Origin: a virus
Virus record (IMG/VR): IMGVR_UViG_3300030451_003515
Coordinates: 1-27,992 of that record
DNA length: 27,992 bases
Direction: 5' to 3' (one strand)
Below the pieces are notes generated by a model. It was not told where the DNA came from and did not search any database. It was given only the letters and a program-made list of their open reading frames with translations. A program made the translations under genes and the position numbers. Position 1 is the stretch's first letter. The number at the start of each line of letters is the position of its first letter. Of the stretch, positions 2,321 through 27,117 are shown one piece after another.

Positions 2321-4505
2321 CGTAATTTTCTCTTAGTTTTTCTGGCATAGTATCTCCATAAGGGTGTTCTAATTCTCTTGTTATATTTTTACCAACTGTT
2401 AGAGATGATGGTAGCGAATATCTGTTAAAATGCAAGAACCAATGCCCCATAACCATGTCAGTTGTTAAACCATCAGGATACTCCATTAATTCTGTTTTAA
2501 ATTCATTTACTACCACTCTTGTTTTTAATGATTGGTCTGAGTAAGGTAAATCTACTAAACCTTGTTTATATCTTGGTCCAAGTGTTTCAACACCAAATTC
2601 AGGATCCGTTTTGTTTCTTGAAGTTTCATGACCCTTAATCAAAGTCTTATGTTTTTTCATCCACTCTTGCACAAATCGATATTGTAATAAATATCTCTGA
2701 GCGCCGTTCTGTTCAATAATCCATAATGAAACAGGCCATCCCATTTCCTCACTTCTCTTTTGCCACTCTTCCATTATTCCACTAAAAGCCTGTGTGTTTT
2801 TATTCCACTCTAAAAAGTTACCAGCTTGTAATCTTATTCTTAAAAGGTCAACTAAATAATCTTTGTCATTTCGTTCATCATAAATCCACCACTGAATAGA
2901 CCACCAGTTATTTGCAGATGGGTCGACTGTTACCAAAGAGTAACAATCCTCTCTATCTATACCTTCTGGAAATTCTAATAATTCTCTATTGTAATTAAAA
3001 CAGCCAGGTAATAATAAACCATCTTTATCCATTCCACCTGTTAGCCATACTTCTTTAACTAAGGATGATACTGTTTCATCATCTAACTGTTGGTATGTCA
3101 ATGCGAATTTTCTAGGATCCGAGGCTTGTACTTTTTGTATATGTCTAAATGTAAATCTCTGAGGATCCAACACACATCCGATATGGTCCTCGTTTTTTAA
3201 TGAGTTTGGGTTCTCACACTTATCCTCATCATGTGCAGGAAATCTTGCATACTTGTAGATAGAGGTTTGTTTTCTTTCTGACTTCTCATAATCCTCACCA
3301 TACTTAATGGCCATTAATTTTTCAGCTTCCTCTTTTGCGGCTTTAATCTGGTCAGGGGTCATATTAGCCGATATGTTTGACATAATCATTTCATCAAGGT
3401 CATCATCAGTTGAATAAACTAAATCCTTACAATGTCTATACAAATCATACTTACCAAATCTTGTACCAATCAATGCTACAATTCCACCTGGCTCACAACG
3501 GGATTCTGCTTCTGCGTGCCACCATTCTGTTAAACTTTCTCTTTGTTCTGCACTTCTTGAATTGGACCTATCACAAAGGTCGTCCCATAAGTTCACTTCA
3601 AAACGACCACCTAAGAAACCCATATCTTGTGATAAGGCAGAACATGTTGGTTCTTTTTCACCTGTTACGAATACACTTTCTAATTGTTTTAAGATGTCAT
3701 GGATATCATCCTCAGGGTCCTCTAGTCTTTTTATGACTTCTGGGCTCTCAGGATCAAAGCCAGCCATCGATAATTTATAATGTAATGAGGCTGCGTGACC
3801 TTCTACACCATCTACAACAAAGGCATCCTTTCTCCAGAGTTCTGGCTCTAATGGTTTAAATCGTCCATACTCTAAATTTAATAAAACATTTTTCTCTAAT
3901 GTGGTTCTTGCTCGGCGAACATACTTTTCACTCTGACCGGTAGTTCTTGAACCTAGTCCTATACGAACATTTCTATTTCTACATATCAGCCATATCACAA
4001 AGTCGTGTGTAATTGTTGTAGTCTTACCACCTCCAGGTGGCGTATTAATAATACCTTTGATTACTTCAGGTAAGCCGGCTTCCTTGGATTCTTGTCCAGT
4101 TTCTATCCATTTCATAAGAATATCGCACATCTCTACTTGCCATGGAATATGGCGTCTATTGAAATATCTTTGTCGAAAATAAGCGAAATCATCATGGGCT
4201 CTCTGAGCCGCCTTGTTTAACTCCTCATACTTCTTTGGGTCAGGGAAATCGTTCTCATCTTGTGATGGAATCTCACCTGTAGCTAAAGCCTCTGCTACTT
4301 CTGTGGGTGTCTGTTCTTTTGATTGATTAGACATGTCATCAAGGAGGCGCCTAACCAAGCTCCTTCTTATACCCATAAGTTCACCTGCTTGATAAGGGTT
4401 CATACCTTTTCGGACCTTTTCGTAAAAGTAATTTTTTACATCAGGTTCTTTATCTATATGAACACCTTTCTGGTGTTGGGGTATATTTGTTGCTTTCTGT
4501 CCCAT
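2310..4505 (-). CDS. terL: terminase large subunit (packaging ATPase and nuclease)
   Basis: This 731-aa motor protein cuts and pumps DNA into the prohead. An N-terminal extension carries an HTH-like stretch (NPYQAGELMGIRRSLVRRLL, about 36-55), possibly doing the DNA recognition normally left to a small terminase; no separate terS is seen. The ATPase has Walker A PPGGGKTTT (about 156-164), a Walker B region around VNLWDDLCDR, and a coupling-like motif GTRFGKYD. The nuclease domain begins near VTVDPSANN, with IIEQNGAQRY as a likely second acidic motif. There is no convincing Shine-Dalgarno before the ATG. Instead TATTAT sits at -13 to -8, so the transcript could be leaderless. It is the first gene of the leftward late operon. 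Confidence 0.95.
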   Translation of the reverse strand: MGQKATNIPQHQKGVHIDKEPDVKNYFYEKVRKGMNPYQAGELMGIRRSLVRRLLDDMSNQSKEQTPTEVAEALATGEIPSQDENDFPDPKKYEELNKAAQRAHDDFAYFRQRYFNRRHIPWQVEMCDILMKWIETGQESKEAGLPEVIKGIINTPPGGGKTTTITHDFVIWLICRNRNVRIGLGSRTTGQSEKYVRRARTTLEKNVLLNLEYGRFKPLEPELWRKDAFVVDGVEGHAASLHYKLSMAGFDPESPEVIKRLEDPEDDIHDILKQLESVFVTGEKEPTCSALSQDMGFLGGRFEVNLWDDLCDRSNSRSAEQRESLTEWWHAEAESRCEPGGIVALIGTRFGKYDLYRHCKDLVYSTDDDLDEMIMSNISANMTPDQIKAAKEEAEKLMAIKYGEDYEKSERKQTSIYKYARFPAHDEDKCENPNSLKNEDHIGCVLDPQRFTFRHIQKVQASDPRKFALTYQQLDDETVSSLVKEVWLTGGMDKDGLLLPGCFNYNRELLEFPEGIDREDCYSLVTVDPSANNWWSIQWWIYDERNDKDYLVDLLRIRLQAGNFLEWNKNTQAFSGIMEEWQKRSEEMGWPVSLWIIEQNGAQRYLLQYRFVQEWMKKHKTLIKGHETSRNKTDPEFGVETLGPRYKQGLVDLPYSDQSLKTRVVVNEFKTELMEYPDGLTTDMVMGHWFLHFNRYSLPSSLTVGKNITRELEHPYGDTMPEKLRENYDGL

Positions 4506-4517
4506 ATATGTTATAAT
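4490..4517 (+). promoter_or_regulatory. candidate rightward promoter inside the terL start
   Basis: A perfect TATAAT (4512-4517) is preceded by TTGCTT (4490-4495) with a 16-nt spacer, reading rightward out of the 5' end of terL. Transcription would start near 4524 and run into the structured region to 4717. The same AT-rich block read on the other strand gives TATTAT for terL, so the two promoters would overlap. Confidence 0.45.
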
Positions 4518-4518
4518 A
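4513..4518 (-). promoter_or_regulatory. candidate -10 box for a leaderless terL transcript
   Basis: On the minus strand TATTAT ends 7 nt before the A of the terL ATG, so the expected transcription start is at or next to the initiation codon. No Shine-Dalgarno is found between. The -35 region is weak (TGAGAG at a 17-nt spacer). Confidence 0.35.
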
Positions 4519-4523
4519 TTGAT

Positions 4524-4717
4524 AGTAGCTTTTCTCTCTCACTTTCTTTTATTTGAGAAAGCTATGAGAGGATAAGTCCTACTATACTAGCAATAGCTTA
4601 GTAGGCACCTCGCTATATGTCAACCAAAATCCAGGATCTACCCCGAGGCTGATACAGTTAGCCTACACTAAAAGAAATTTAAAAGCTTAGTCAAAACTAA
4701 AGTCTTAGCTGTTTTTT
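4524..4717 (+). ncRNA. candidate structured RNA or long leader in the divergent control region
   Basis: The 346 bases between terL and the first rightward gene hold no convincing ORF but several nested inverted repeats. Stem 1 pairs 4526-4536 with 4555-4564 (one bulge). Stem 2 pairs CCTACTA 4578-4584 with TAGTAGG 4599-4605, closed by GAGG 4568-4571 with CCTC 4608-4611. Stem 3 pairs AGGCT 4646-4650 with AGCCT 4660-4664. A last stem pairs 4684-4690 with 4704-4710 and is followed by six T (4712-4717), like an intrinsic terminator. A rightward promoter ends just before. This could be a small RNA or an attenuated leader. It does not fit a tRNA, and I do not recognise a family. Confidence 0.4.
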
Positions 4718-4814
4718 CTGCTGATAAATCAAAAGTTTTTTTGAACATTCTGAAAAACATAATCAACTTAAAGAAAATAAATTATAAATTATATTTGCAA
4801 TTCTGTAGGTATGA

Positions 4815-4844
4815 TATGATTAATTAAGAGAAAAAGAAAGTGAG
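4815..4844 (+). promoter_or_regulatory. -10-like box and shared leader block upstream of the 20-aa ORF
   Basis: TATGAT (4815-4820) is followed at the same distance as at 5650-5680 by the 12-mer AAAGAAAGTGAG (4833-4844), which also supplies a GAAAGTGAG ribosome-binding site for ATG 4852. The -35 is poor: TTGCAA at 4795 is too close. The similarity to the 5650 leader suggests duplicated control DNA. Confidence 0.4.
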
Positions 4845-4851
4845 AATTAAA

Positions 4852-4914
4852 ATGAAAAAACTAATTATCTTTTCTTTCGCTCTTGCTATCTATAACCCAG
4901 TGAAACAGAAGTAA
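4852..4914 (+). CDS. 20-aa leader-like peptide ORF
   Basis: This short ORF encodes MKKLIIFSFALAIYNPVKQK. It has a good ribosome-binding region (AAAGTGAG) and the shared leader block upstream. The peptide looks like a truncated signal sequence, with two Lys followed by a hydrophobic core. It ends 18 nt before the next gene, which has its own weaker GAAAGAG signal. It may be a leader peptide, a tiny membrane peptide, or the remnant of a longer gene. Too short to assign a function. Confidence 0.35.
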   Translation: MKKLIIFSFALAIYNPVKQK

Positions 4915-4932
4915 CTGGTAGAAAGAGTAGTT

Positions 4933-5109
4933 ATGTCTAAACTAACTGCTACTGTTCTAGCCGAACAGTTAGAGATTAGTCCTAAGACATTGCGTGCCTA
5001 TCTGCGTAGAAATCATACTCGTAACTTGGAGAATAAGTCCAAGTCATGGGATGAGTTCTTAACTGCGAAAGTAGTTGCAGATGTGCGTAAGCACTTCGTT
5101 AAGAAGTAG
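4933..5109 (+). CDS. 58-aa mini-HTH DNA-binding protein, paralogue of the 5689 gene
   Basis: The product is a single small helix-turn-helix unit: VLAEQLEISPKTLRAYLRRN followed by HTRNL, then a basic wing-like segment and a final helix (VVADVRKHFVKK). It aligns over most of its length with the 79-aa protein encoded at 5689 (LAEELDISPKSLRAWLRTN), so the two are clear paralogues. The pattern resembles MerR/excisionase-type winged helices and is probably DNA-binding. The start is ATG 4933, with GAAAGAG upstream. The two paralogues flank the phased GGTTCC array, making that array an obvious candidate target. Early regulator or replication-control factor is inferred. Confidence 0.7.
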   Translation: MSKLTATVLAEQLEISPKTLRAYLRRNHTRNLENKSKSWDEFLTAKVVADVRKHFVKK

Positions 5110-5214
5110 CGCCGTCTAAGGACTGACTGACTAAGCCTCCGAGTTGTGTGTGTTGACTTGTGAACAGAACTAACACACTCCTTATGTATAAGCTATCTAT
5201 TGAAAGGAGTTCTC

Positions 5215-5304
5215 ATGGATGTATTAATTTATGAGATGGTCATGGTAGATGTGATATGGTTCCTCCTAGGTGCCAACACATGGGCCATGCTATTCCGCAG
5301 GTAA
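5215..5304 (+). CDS. 29-aa single-span membrane peptide (putative)
   Basis: The ORF begins MDVLIYEMVMVDVIWFLLGA and ends WAMLFRR. It has a strong AAAGGAG ribosome-binding site 8 nt before ATG 5215. A hydrophobic stretch (about residues 9-26) with positive residues only at the C-terminus suggests an N-out single-pass peptide. Such tiny early membrane peptides occur in many phages. Function is unknown. The first GGTTCC copy (5258) lies inside it. Confidence 0.45.
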   Translation: MDVLIYEMVMVDVIWFLLGANTWAMLFRR

Positions 5305-5322
5305 ATGATTAAGAAGGAGGGT

Positions 5323-5498
5323 GGTTCCTTACGGTTCCATCCTCTTTCTTTTTGTGGTGGGCGGTTCCTCCCGGTTTCGATGATACGGCAGGTTCCATAC
5401 GGTTCCGTGCGGTACCTATCTATTCCTTTCAAAGAGCATGATACGGCCAGCCACAAGGAACCTGACCCAATGTATTCCGGGTGGTACCTCAAGGATCC
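5323..5498. repeat. helically phased GGTTCC-like hexamer array (iteron or operator cluster)
   Basis: GGTTCC occurs at 5323, 5333, 5363, 5391 and 5401, with relatives GGTTTC 5373, GGTACC 5411, TATTCC 5421, TATTCC 5473, GGTACC 5483 and GGATCC 5493. Within each cluster neighbouring copies start exactly 10 bp apart: 5323/5333, 5363/5373, 5391/5401/5411/5421, 5473/5483/5493. One helical turn per unit puts all copies on one face of the DNA. Because 10 is not a multiple of 3, coding for a peptide repeat is unlikely. Another GGTTCC lies at 5258 and a reverse copy, GGAACC, at 5457. The 384 bases from 5305 to 5688 hold this array, an inverted repeat and the next promoter, but no gene I can support. Confidence 0.7.
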
Positions 5499-5542
5499 GC
5501 CTATGCTCACGAAATACCACAATGGCTTATAGAATAACAGGT

Positions 5543-5575
5543 ATTCAGGAATCGTATGCAGGTGCATTCCTGGAT
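5543..5575. repeat. 10-bp inverted repeat with one mismatch
   Basis: ATTCAGGAAT (5543-5552) faces ATTCCTGGAT (5566-5575) across a 13-nt loop. No T-run follows, so this is more likely an operator or RNA hairpin than a terminator. Confidence 0.45.
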
Positions 5576-5626
5576 GAGGCATGCCAAAAGCCTGGATAAA
5601 AATCATCAAATAAGGCTGCCATTTAG

Positions 5627-5655
5627 TTGCATTAGGCGCCTTGGTGTGTTATAAT
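5627..5655 (+). promoter_or_regulatory. strong sigma70-type promoter for the 79-aa mini-HTH gene
   Basis: TTGCAT (5627-5632), a 17-nt spacer and TATAAT (5650-5655) form the best promoter in the window. The spacer contains the 8-bp palindrome AGGCGCCT (5634-5641), a possible operator. The leader downstream carries AAAGAAAGTGAG (5669-5680) and then AGGTGA as ribosome-binding site. Confidence 0.75.
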
Positions 5656-5688
5656 TATACCATAGAATAAAGAAAGTGAGGTGAATCC

Positions 5689-5928
5689 ATGAACGCAACC
5701 GCAGTTAAGGCAAAAGCACCTGTTAAAAAAGCCGCAGAAGGCACAATGACAGGAGTTACGCCAACAGATTTAGCTGAGGAATTGGATATAAGTCCTAAAA
5801 GTCTCCGTGCTTGGTTACGAACCAATTACACAAGACCTTTAGACGCCAAGAACTCTAGGTGGTACTTGACCGACAAGCAAGTCAAGGCAGCCAAAGACCA
5901 CTATATCAAGCCTAAAAAGGCTGAATAG
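5689..5928 (+). CDS. 79-aa mini-HTH DNA-binding protein
   Basis: The N-terminal 20 residues are a basic Ala/Lys-rich tail (AVKAKAPVKKAAEG), of the kind that binds DNA non-specifically. Residues about 25-50 form the HTH (TDLAEELDISPKSLRAWLRT), followed by YTRPLDAKNSRWYLTDKQ and a final helix and basic end. It is the longer paralogue of the 58-aa protein at 4933. The gene has its own strong promoter, a good AGGTGA ribosome-binding site, and is followed by a long hairpin, so it forms a one-gene transcription unit. An abundant early regulator or nucoid-type protein is inferred. It is not a WhiB protein, having no cysteines, nor a full Lsr2. Confidence 0.8.
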   Translation: MNATAVKAKAPVKKAAEGTMTGVTPTDLAEELDISPKSLRAWLRTNYTRPLDAKNSRWYLTDKQVKAAKDHYIKPKKAE

Positions 5929-5934
5929 ATAGCA

Positions 5935-5988
5935 AGAGTGAGGCTGGAGGTGAACAGCCCTGTTGATAAATACCTCCAGCCAAACTCT
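5935..5988. terminator. long stem-loop after the mini-HTH gene
   Basis: AGAGT/ACTCT (5935-5939 with 5984-5988) and GGCTGGAGGT/ACCTCCAGCC (5942-5951 with 5972-5981) form a 15-bp stem with a 2x2 internal loop. Inside the loop AACA/TGTT can pair again. The T-run after it is weak (GTTTCT), so it may be a terminator, an RNA stabiliser or a structured regulatory element. The remaining bases to 6070 show nothing else clear. Confidence 0.55.
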
Positions 5989-6074
5989 GTTTCTAAAATG
6001 ATCCTGTGAGTGGAGTATATCGCCGATACGGTGAGCCCTAATTATTTAAGGTAGCGAGGACTGACCAAATCTGC

Positions 6075-24902: not shown

Positions 24903-25054
24903 ATACCTAATGTTATTATAGTAGCTAATCCAGTAACTTGCTGGGCAGAGCCTGTTAAGGTAAGTGTGGCTATAACTAAACCAACCAAAGTCCAACTAAG
25001 GTTGAGTGTTTCTTTTATAGCTTCAACAAACCAATTCCACAATTTACTTATCAT
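24872..25054 (-). CDS. 60-aa membrane protein (holin-like)
   Basis: After an amphipathic start (MISKLWNWFVEAIKETLN) there are two hydrophobic segments, SWTLVGLVIATLTLTG and LATIITLGIWLLTISF, ending in RK. This layout fits a small holin-like or pinholin-type protein. It starts in an ATGA overlap with the Thr/Glu-rich gene, with AGGAAG upstream. The window thus has two holin-like proteins (this and 21051) and an XhlA-like one. Confidence 0.7.
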   Translation of the reverse strand: MISKLWNWFVEAIKETLNLSWTLVGLVIATLTLTGSAQQVTGLATIITLGIWLLTISFRK

Positions 25055-27117
25055 ATAGTCTTCCTAAATATAAAAGCCGACATACTAGCTATTCTAGTCA
25101 AAATTACAGGAACCACAACTTCCTGGGCTTTTTCTTTTTGGTCTTGGGTCATGTCATCTCCTATTGTGCTTATACTTATTTCCTCTAAATCTATATCTAC
25201 AAATGTTTCTATTGGGTTGTCTAAGAAGGTCTCAAACTGCACCTCTGTAACAACATCAGCAAGGGTATAATTCTCTACATCCTTATTTTCTATGGCTCTT
25301 TCAACATATTCCTCTACTGCTTCCGCTACTACTTCATCATCTTTTACAGCCTCTGCAATAATTTCAACATCCTCACTCTCTTCCAAATTTAAAACCTCAG
25401 CTACGACTTCTATTTGTTCCTCAGTAAGATCCTCTACATCCTCAATAGCTTCCTCTACTACTGCCTGTATAACTTCTTGTACTTCCTCTGTAGCTTGGTC
25501 TAAGTTTTCTATACCAACTTCTACAACTTCTTCCAATACTTCTACAACTTCCTCGGGTTCGAGTTCTTGCACATATACTTCAATGGCCTCTTCAACTTCC
25601 TCATCTGATAAATCTTCCTCTATTTCTATTTCGATTACTTCCTCTAATTCCTCAATCTTTTCCTCAACCACAATATCAAGAATTTCCTCCTCATCTTTTT
25701 CGATAGGTATTTCTGTTTCGATAATTTCCTCAACAAATTCATCTTCCTCTATTTCCTCAAACTCTGTGTCCCAATCATCAATATCCTCTTCCTCTGTGAT
25801 TATTTCGATTTCATCAGGTATTTCTAGTATAATAACTTCTTCCTCAAAATCATCAAACTCCTCTAAGAATTCCTCAATCTCAACATAGGTTTCAATAAAT
25901 TCCTCAATCTCCTCTTCATTTTCAAATTCCAAGATTTCAAGTTCATCTTCCAATTCCAGCTTTTTATCTTCAAGTTCCATTTCTTTTTCAAGTTCAAGGA
26001 TCTCTTCCTCAGTAAGCTCAATAAACTCTTCCTCCTCATATTCATTTTCCACAAAGTCAGGTATATCAACATCATCAAAAAACTCGTCTCCGATTTCTTC
26101 CATATCTTCCTCAATAATTTCGACATCACAATCTCCTCGTTCTATTTGTTCGTCCGTTAATGCACAACCATAAGTATCTAAATTAGCCTGTCTTTGGTTA
26201 TCCCTTTCAACAGTACCATCATCTATTTCATGTTGTTGATATTCAGCTTCAGAACCATCATCCAATATTACTACAAAAGTTTCGGGTTCAGGAGGTGGAG
26301 GAGGTGGGGGTGGAGGAGGTGGTGGTAAAGTTGTAGTTGTTGTAGTAGTAGTGGTAGTAGTTGTAGGCATAACATATTTAAAAGATATGTCATCCAACAA
26401 TGACCAGTCATTAATGGTTATTGTAAAACTTTCTATGAAGGTGTCTAGTGTATCGTAAATATTATAAACCACTGTTTCAAGCATGGTTTGTAAGTTAGAA
26501 TTACTTTGGGCGTCTAAGACATTTTCTTGGGTTGTTTCATCTGTATGAGTATAGGTAACTGTACCTTCATTATTTAATGCACCTATTGTAAAACCTACTT
26601 CATATATCTCTATATCTAGTTCTTCCTCATCTACTGTGGTTGTTTCTGGTAATATAAATGTATAATCCTCACTATCGTTACCGTGTTGCATATAGTGTAA
26701 GTTCATACAAAAATCTGTACAACCAAATTGACCATCATAATGATTATTAATTACTATATTGTTTTCCACTTCATCACCATTAATATCTAATTGATCCTCA
26801 GGTAAATCTATATCTGTGGCTTGTTCATAAGTAGGCACAGTTGTAGTCGTAGTAGAAGTGGTAGTAGTAGTTGTTGTACCTGTAGTTTCCTCAGTTTCTT
26901 CCTCTACTTCTTCCTCTAAAGGCCCGTCAAAAGTTTCTACTTCCTCGGTTTCTCCTGGGATAGTCGTAGTAGTAGTAGTAGGTACAGTAGTGGTAGTAGT
27001 AGTACCAGTATCTCCTTCATTAGCATATACCGGTAATGGATATATTAAACATACGGCGGCTAAAATTCTTAAATACTTACTTATCCCCCGTTGTTGCAAC
27101 ACCCGTTTCCACAGCAA
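25051..27117 (-). CDS. large secreted Thr-/Glu-rich low-complexity protein in the lysis cassette
   Basis: About 688 aa. A signal peptide is likely (YLRILAAVCLIYPLPVYA, residues 15-32). Then come Thr-rich linkers (TTTTTTVPTTTTTTIP), a beta-like domain with Cys and aromatic residues (about 97-250), a 12-Thr run and a 12-Pro run, a short unit GSEAEYQQHEIDDG...GCALTDEQIERGDC, a very acidic Glu/Ile/Val region (about 340-560), a helical region (EEQIEVVAEVLNLEESEDVE), and a hydrophobic end (VVVPVILTRIASMSAFIF). TTG 27117 is used as start but is uncertain: it overlaps the Cys-rich micro-ORF and lacks a well-spaced ribosome-binding site. A surface-anchored or exported protein of actinobacterial style is inferred; function unknown. 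Confidence 0.8.
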   Translation of the reverse strand: MLWKRVLQQRGISKYLRILAAVCLIYPLPVYANEGDTGTTTTTTVPTTTTTTIPGETEEVETFDGPLEEEVEEETEETTGTTTTTTTSTTTTTVPTYEQATDIDLPEDQLDINGDEVENNIVINNHYDGQFGCTDFCMNLHYMQHGNDSEDYTFILPETTTVDEEELDIEIYEVGFTIGALNNEGTVTYTHTDETTQENVLDAQSNSNLQTMLETVVYNIYDTLDTFIESFTITINDWSLLDDISFKYVMPTTTTTTTTTTTTLPPPPPPPPPPPPEPETFVVILDDGSEAEYQQHEIDDGTVERDNQRQANLDTYGCALTDEQIERGDCDVEIIEEDMEEIGDEFFDDVDIPDFVENEYEEEEFIELTEEEILELEKEMELEDKKLELEDELEILEFENEEEIEEFIETYVEIEEFLEEFDDFEEEVIILEIPDEIEIITEEEDIDDWDTEFEEIEEDEFVEEIIETEIPIEKDEEEILDIVVEEKIEELEEVIEIEIEEDLSDEEVEEAIEVYVQELEPEEVVEVLEEVVEVGIENLDQATEEVQEVIQAVVEEAIEDVEDLTEEQIEVVAEVLNLEESEDVEIIAEAVKDDEVVAEAVEEYVERAIENKDVENYTLADVVTEVQFETFLDNPIETFVDIDLEEISISTIGDDMTQDQKEKAQEVVVPVILTRIASMSAFIFRKTI

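Follow-up and report, generated by a model that had tools for sequence, protein, structure and literature searches.

Between the genes for two paralogous mini-HTH proteins, here called HTH1 and HTH2, an uncultivated virus carries an array of GGTTCC-like hexamers stepped at 10 bp, which we lean towards reading as an operator, or other nucleoprotein site, for cooperative binding by small winged helix-turn-helix (wHTH) proteins, most likely HTH1 and/or HTH2, that would control the early region, because this class includes proteins that occupy direct repeats cooperatively at a spacing of one helical turn. The window analysed here, a stretch of 27,992 nucleotides, is part of a 29,374-base record of the virus. 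Sequence-level support for the operator comes from the phased repeats, which relatives retain as 10-bp doublets in register with a second motif, from the conserved gene pair, the apparently non-coding nature of the array and the predicted fold class of the proteins, from which we infer that HTH1 and HTH2 would be the binders, that they would bind cooperatively, and that transcriptional control would be the outcome.

Layout of the locus

Leftward from the terminase gene (4505) run the late genes; the early genes start at HTH1 (4933) and run rightward, and the array is flanked by HTH1 and HTH2. HTH1 (4933–5109; plus strand, like the other features of the locus unless stated) is an ORF for a 58-aa MerR/Xis-like mini-HTH protein with weak MerR/HTH matches, kept in relatives. 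Between it and the array, an ORF for a 29-aa hydrophobic peptide with a strong ribosome-binding site, GAAAGGAG, can be read off the sequence at 5215–5304; a similar peptide occupies the same place in two of the relatives introduced below (L002 and L147) and is absent in another (L131). There follows an intrinsic-terminator-like hairpin (5311–5350; −24.7 kcal/mol, z −4.8) that holds the first GGTTCC doublet (5323–5338, step 10 bp) in its arms and is followed by TTTTT. The next 10-bp doublet, GGTTCC/GGTTTC (5363–5378), lies 24 and 14 bp ahead of the GG of a second motif, RCGGYMAG or motif B, present at 5385–5392 in the variant form ACGGCAGG. Then comes a four-member 10-bp run of GGTTCC, GGTTCC, GGTACC and TATTCC (5391–5426), whose members stand 54, 44, 34 and 24 bp ahead of the GG of the next motif B, ACGGCCAG (5443–5450). 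An inverted GGTTCC on the minus strand (5457–5462), present also in L001 and L142, precedes the last doublet, GGTACC/GGATCC (5483–5498), which reads GCGGATCCTTGAGG on the minus strand and is conserved at the end of the array in all relatives, as CCTNNAGG. About 130 bp downstream, without overlapping the array, is a promoter-like site for HTH2, TTGCAT and TATAAT separated by 17 bp (5627–5655), called from its conservation in alignments of relatives and not from a sigma-70 scan, in which promoters did not rise above chance. HTH2 itself (5689–5928) encodes a 79-aa paralogue with basic tails, characterised below through a structural model and its fold matches.

Directly 3′ of HTH2, at 5940–5990, is a hairpin whose stem varies between relatives yet remains paired (GGCTGGAGGT/ACCTCCAGCC, CTAGGTCCTT/AAGGACCTAG, GAGGCAGAC/GTCTGCCTC and GAGGCACTA/TAGTGCCTC) around a retained loop word, AGCCCTGTT. 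Elsewhere in the window, the minus strand at 25051–27117 encodes a 688-aa protein that has long runs of threonine and proline and is very acidic and rich in glutamate in its middle part.

This layout also bears on the origin with short iterons that the preliminary description had offered as one option. As worked out here, HTH proteins or the primase-helicase would bind the array as the iteron part of a replication origin and open an AT-rich stretch at 4680–4860. The array occurs at a single locus per genome, at a sign change of gene direction and GC skew and about 500 bp from the AT-rich stretch (17–27% GC), and the virus encodes a primase-helicase and a family A polymerase. However, the skew does not single out an origin, since it tracks gene direction at both turning points, the AT-rich stretch does not adjoin the array, 4500–5700 holds no mismatch-free DnaA-like box, and iterons are usually much longer than these motif units. 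An origin role is a possible but unlikely one, with position in its favour and no further positive evidence gained.

Phasing and clustering of the hexamers

The preliminary description had listed eleven array members, all at exact coordinates, and had placed five exact GGTTCC copies in 84 bp, a span that we verified as 5323–5406 (starts at 5323, 5333, 5363, 5391 and 5401). The near copies are GGTTTC at 5373, GGTACC at 5411 and 5483, and GGATCC at 5493, but the members at 5421 and 5473 are merely TATTCC, weak matches to GGTTCC. It had overlooked an additional GGTTCC at 5258, inside the small ORF, the inverted copy at 5457, motif B at 5385 and 5443, and the identity of the first doublet with the terminator stem.

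The number of GGTTCC copies in the window is not above chance (8 against 9.75 expected), but seven of the eight fall at 5258–5462, and it is this clustering, together with the phasing, and not the total, that is unusual. Counting both GGTTCC and GGAACC, seven copies occur in 205 bp, as against at most three in 200 shuffles. Across 5300–5510, identity at lag 10 has a z of 4.6, a value reached in none of 1000 dinucleotide shuffles, and GGNNCC pairs exactly 10 apart number four, against 0.115 expected in the whole window. The observation of a GGTTCC array that exceeds chance is thus confirmed.

A similar regularity links the hexamers with motif B. Doublets of the form GGNNYC-N4-GGNNYC number 10 pairs in the branch of relatives that includes the window (0.12 expected) and four pairs in L002 and L131 (0.10 expected), with 0 of 1000 shuffles as high in either case; these significances are to be read in the light of motif definitions made after the arrays had been viewed and of relatives that are not independent within a branch, the 10-bp step itself having been taken from the preliminary description before the relatives were known. 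Motif B lies downstream of the doublets, and in seven of nine strict RCGGYMAG copies a GGNNYC stands upstream at a distance of exactly 24 bp, whereas pooled shuffles gave at most one such pair at any single distance. Taking all distances from GGNNYC to RCGGYMAG, 21 of 27 equal 4 modulo 10 (14, 24, 34, 44, 54). RCGGY cores all lie on one strand in the window (6 to 0), and almost all do in relatives. Operators of MerR/BldC/Xis-type wHTH proteins present direct repeats that share an orientation and are spaced by about one helical turn, and the array has both properties.

Scans of the window's record and of the available DNA of two further genomes (G001 and G004) found the composite unit at this locus only. 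Across the collection, a GGTTCCN4GGTTCCN4GGT triple was considered as a signature and rejected: it occurs in at least 120 stretches, and alone it is no signature because the loci inspected all lack the HTH pair. The composite pattern GCGGTTCCT-N15-RCGGYMAG returned 44 stretches, about the chance level by rough estimate, with the HTH pair in the known relatives only.

Conservation among relatives

Relatives are IMG/VR contigs with the same locus, found through HTH2, terminase and HTH profiles, and they form two branches, one with the window, L001 and L135 (on the same contig as L142), the other with L002, L003, L004 and L131 (on the same contig as L146, with L138/L145 a near copy). In both, the order is HTH1, terminator, array, promoter and HTH2, and wherever relatives have the composite array it lies between HTH1 and HTH2. 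Alignment shows the array of L001 to be 20 bp, or two rungs, shorter than that of the window, and L135 to have one further rung fewer, which gives a 10-bp rung series of one (L135), two (L001) and four (window). From end doublet to end doublet the distance is 139–183 bp among relatives, and the helical phase is not fixed.

The preliminary description had held that related phages lacking the 10-bp phasing would speak against the array, and here the outcome is divided: the long run at 5391–5421 belongs to this virus alone and is lost in relatives, but doublets are kept in both branches. Raw autocorrelation at lag 10 is 5.0 in the window, 2.6 in L001 and 2.8 in L135, and absent in the L002/L131 branch; the conclusion from such simple autocorrelation that this branch is without phasing was rejected, as motif-pair counts reveal its doublets.

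In distant relatives (44–48 kb), HTH pairs flank an intergenic region with other repeats and without GGTTCC, for example CTGACTGAGRWCCCAC in L147/L166, with a related form in L168. If the operator reading is right, protein and site must have co-evolved. Around HTH2 of L166 (6361–7258) there are three copies of a GGCCNACTGACTGAGRWCCCAC-like repeat, different from that of the window, and L168 has two copies of a related one, 30 bp apart. One contig (3300010883_007862, L129/L148) has a terminase 86% identical and a retained HTH1, followed by two other genes, with no array or HTH2 in the DNA scanned.

Coding and RNA readings

A 75-aa ORF across the array (5305–5532) was rejected as coding, its L001 homologue being broken by the 20-bp difference and no frame being kept in the other relatives. 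Codon conservation, which the preliminary description had named as evidence against its reading of the array, is thus not found, and in relatives the array is, judging by its reading frames, non-coding.

That the repeats act in RNA, as terminator or attenuator hairpins, is a reading to which we give little credence. The first doublet is indeed the terminator stem, and the stem is conserved with compensating changes: an equivalent hairpin and T-run occur in L001, L142, L002, L003 and L146, with stems altered yet still paired, and the word GGCGGWTCC is retained in the 5′ arm in L142, L002 and L146. GGNNCC-N4-GGNNCC could, moreover, form a short hairpin. Beyond the terminator, however, neither strand of the array (5361–5520) is more stably folded than its shuffles (z −0.53 and −0.76), and the inner bases of the doublets are identical in 15 of 28 cases and complementary in 6 of 28, so that the doublets are more likely protein sites than hairpins. 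A structured RNA over the whole array was rejected, since the excess stability is confined to the terminator and the array has no match in Rfam.

The mini-HTH proteins

Both proteins look like MerR/BldC/Xis-type winged helices, a resemblance, based on profiles and a predicted model, that speaks to class only and not to function. Matches of HTH1 and HTH2 to MerR, MerR_1 and HTH_17 are many and consistent but weak (the best Pfam match has E 0.00025, and none reaches the curated cut-offs), and a profile search of PDB sequences returned two MerR chains only (E 0.96), with BldC not among them. In a Foldseek search with the AlphaFold2 model of HTH2 (mean pLDDT 75), RacA ranks first, the best matches also include pSK1 Par, BldC and Pukovnik Xis, and these consistent but weak matches all fall short of significance (E 0.18 or worse). 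VIA-align places pSK1 Par first (Z 5.9 over 52 residues) and, lower down, IF2 domains and numerous MerR proteins. Among cultured phages, HTH2, the terminase and the HTH of a soil relative found no match, and HTH1 of L147 found weak ones only (E 0.4 or worse); a single genome-contig scan gave only partial, 22-residue matches in Actinobacteria assemblies. By these sequence searches, none of the cultured phages covered closely matches the virus group.

The likeness to pSK1 Par, whose DNA-binding domain on centromere DNA is the structure matched, and the first rank of RacA suggest a possible partition role, with the array a centromere-like or architectural site (partition, nucleoid organisation) bound by the mini-HTH proteins; the single array per genome and the basic tails of HTH2 would suit it. 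Yet fold similarity does not show function, the HTH proteins are too small for a coiled coil, and a ParA-type ATPase (PF13614) is absent in nine records (eight relatives of 44.8–48.1 kb and the window's own), so that we find this quite improbable. pSK1 Par is larger and has further domains, and here, as far as the PF13614 search tells, there is no sign of partition genes.

A packaging role is also possible, with the array as part of a packaging start (cos/pac) and the mini-HTH in the role that the wHTH domain of gpNu1 has in lambda, and its probability seems low to us. The gene for the terminase large subunit is 0.8–1 kb from the locus, the structural matches include the gpNu1 domain (Z 3.2), and there are weak PHROG matches to small terminase families, but the HTH genes are directed away from the terminase, and L147 has a separate small-terminase-like gene beyond the HTH pair (judged by eye). 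A better packaging-site candidate is an ultra-conserved non-coding element at 4580–4700, between terminase and HTH1. This element is nearly invariant in nine relatives, more conserved than their terminases (82–86% identical), and consists of a hairpin, CCTACTATACTAGCAATAGCNTAGTAGG, then AAATCCAGGAT...CCCC.AG...GCTTAGTCAAAA; it has no match in Rfam, is too invariant for a covariation test, and is itself a candidate packaging site, origin or RNA.

Comparison with known systems and proposed mechanism

Cooperative, head-to-tail binding to direct repeats at a spacing of one helical turn is known for lambda Xis, Pukovnik Xis and Apl (PMC7498355) and for BldC, of 68 aa, which lines up in this way on variable numbers of repeats (PMC5859096). 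Apl of phage 186, at its pR-pL operator, offers a close parallel, a small DNA-binding protein on several direct repeats 10–11 bp apart in a phage control region (PMC7498355); unlike there, the site here is putative, no integrase was found, the doublets are locked to a second motif, and two paralogous proteins are present. BldC of Streptomyces, at the whiI and smeA-ssfA operators, is a MerR-like wHTH protein without effector domain that binds same-orientation repeats about one turn apart (PMC5859096), but its sites consist of AT-rich repeats (AATT core), at whiI with a step of 9 bp, in contrast to GC-rich GGTTCC at 10 bp, and no sequence match between it and the HTH proteins was detected. Xis of mycobacteriophage Pukovnik, also a structural match of HTH2, is a small wHTH protein that binds head to tail to tandem repeats spaced by one turn (cited in PMC7498355), but acts at an attachment site with an integrase, and no integrase was found here.

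Phasing and fold class would agree with HTH proteins that are recombination directionality factors, such as Apl and Pukovnik Xis, the array then being an attachment-site arm. Tyrosine integrase (PF00589) and serine recombinase (PF00239) are, however, absent in 17 related records, eight of them of 44.8–48.1 kb and all possible fragments in which a gene could be missed, while controls gave matches. Since these possibly fragmentary records show neither integrase nor resolvase, nor the nine records above a ParA family, an excision role appears unlikely, and the attachment-site reading as a whole very improbable.

For the cooperative operator, we propose that HTH1/HTH2 protomers would occupy the repeats all facing one way, one to each turn of the helix, and align head to tail, bending or coating the DNA. 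The bound array would regulate the early region immediately downstream, where the HTH2 promoter lies, and the bound proteins may form a roadblock at the terminator that closes the HTH1 unit. The interpretation in the preliminary description is partly supported: the doublets in both branches, the ORF that is not kept and the lack of folding outside the terminator favour a DNA-level site, and the protein fold class fits an operator or filament site. Against the operator reading count the weakness of the family and fold matches, an HTH2 promoter that the array does not overlap, the variable array length without fixed helical phase, and the other intergenic motifs of distant relatives that have the same gene pair. 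A more specific version, which we offer as an unlikely conjecture, would have HTH1 and HTH2 each read one motif, the GGTTCC ladder or RCGGYMAG, in a mixed, phase-locked filament, with a ladder that varies in 10-bp steps between relatives, one rung inside the terminator, and a virus group without integrase.

For this group of uncultured viruses the array constitutes a compact, conserved and easily tested candidate regulatory site, and the natural series of one, two and four rungs may help to show how the strength of cooperative wHTH binding depends on the number of rungs and on helical phase.
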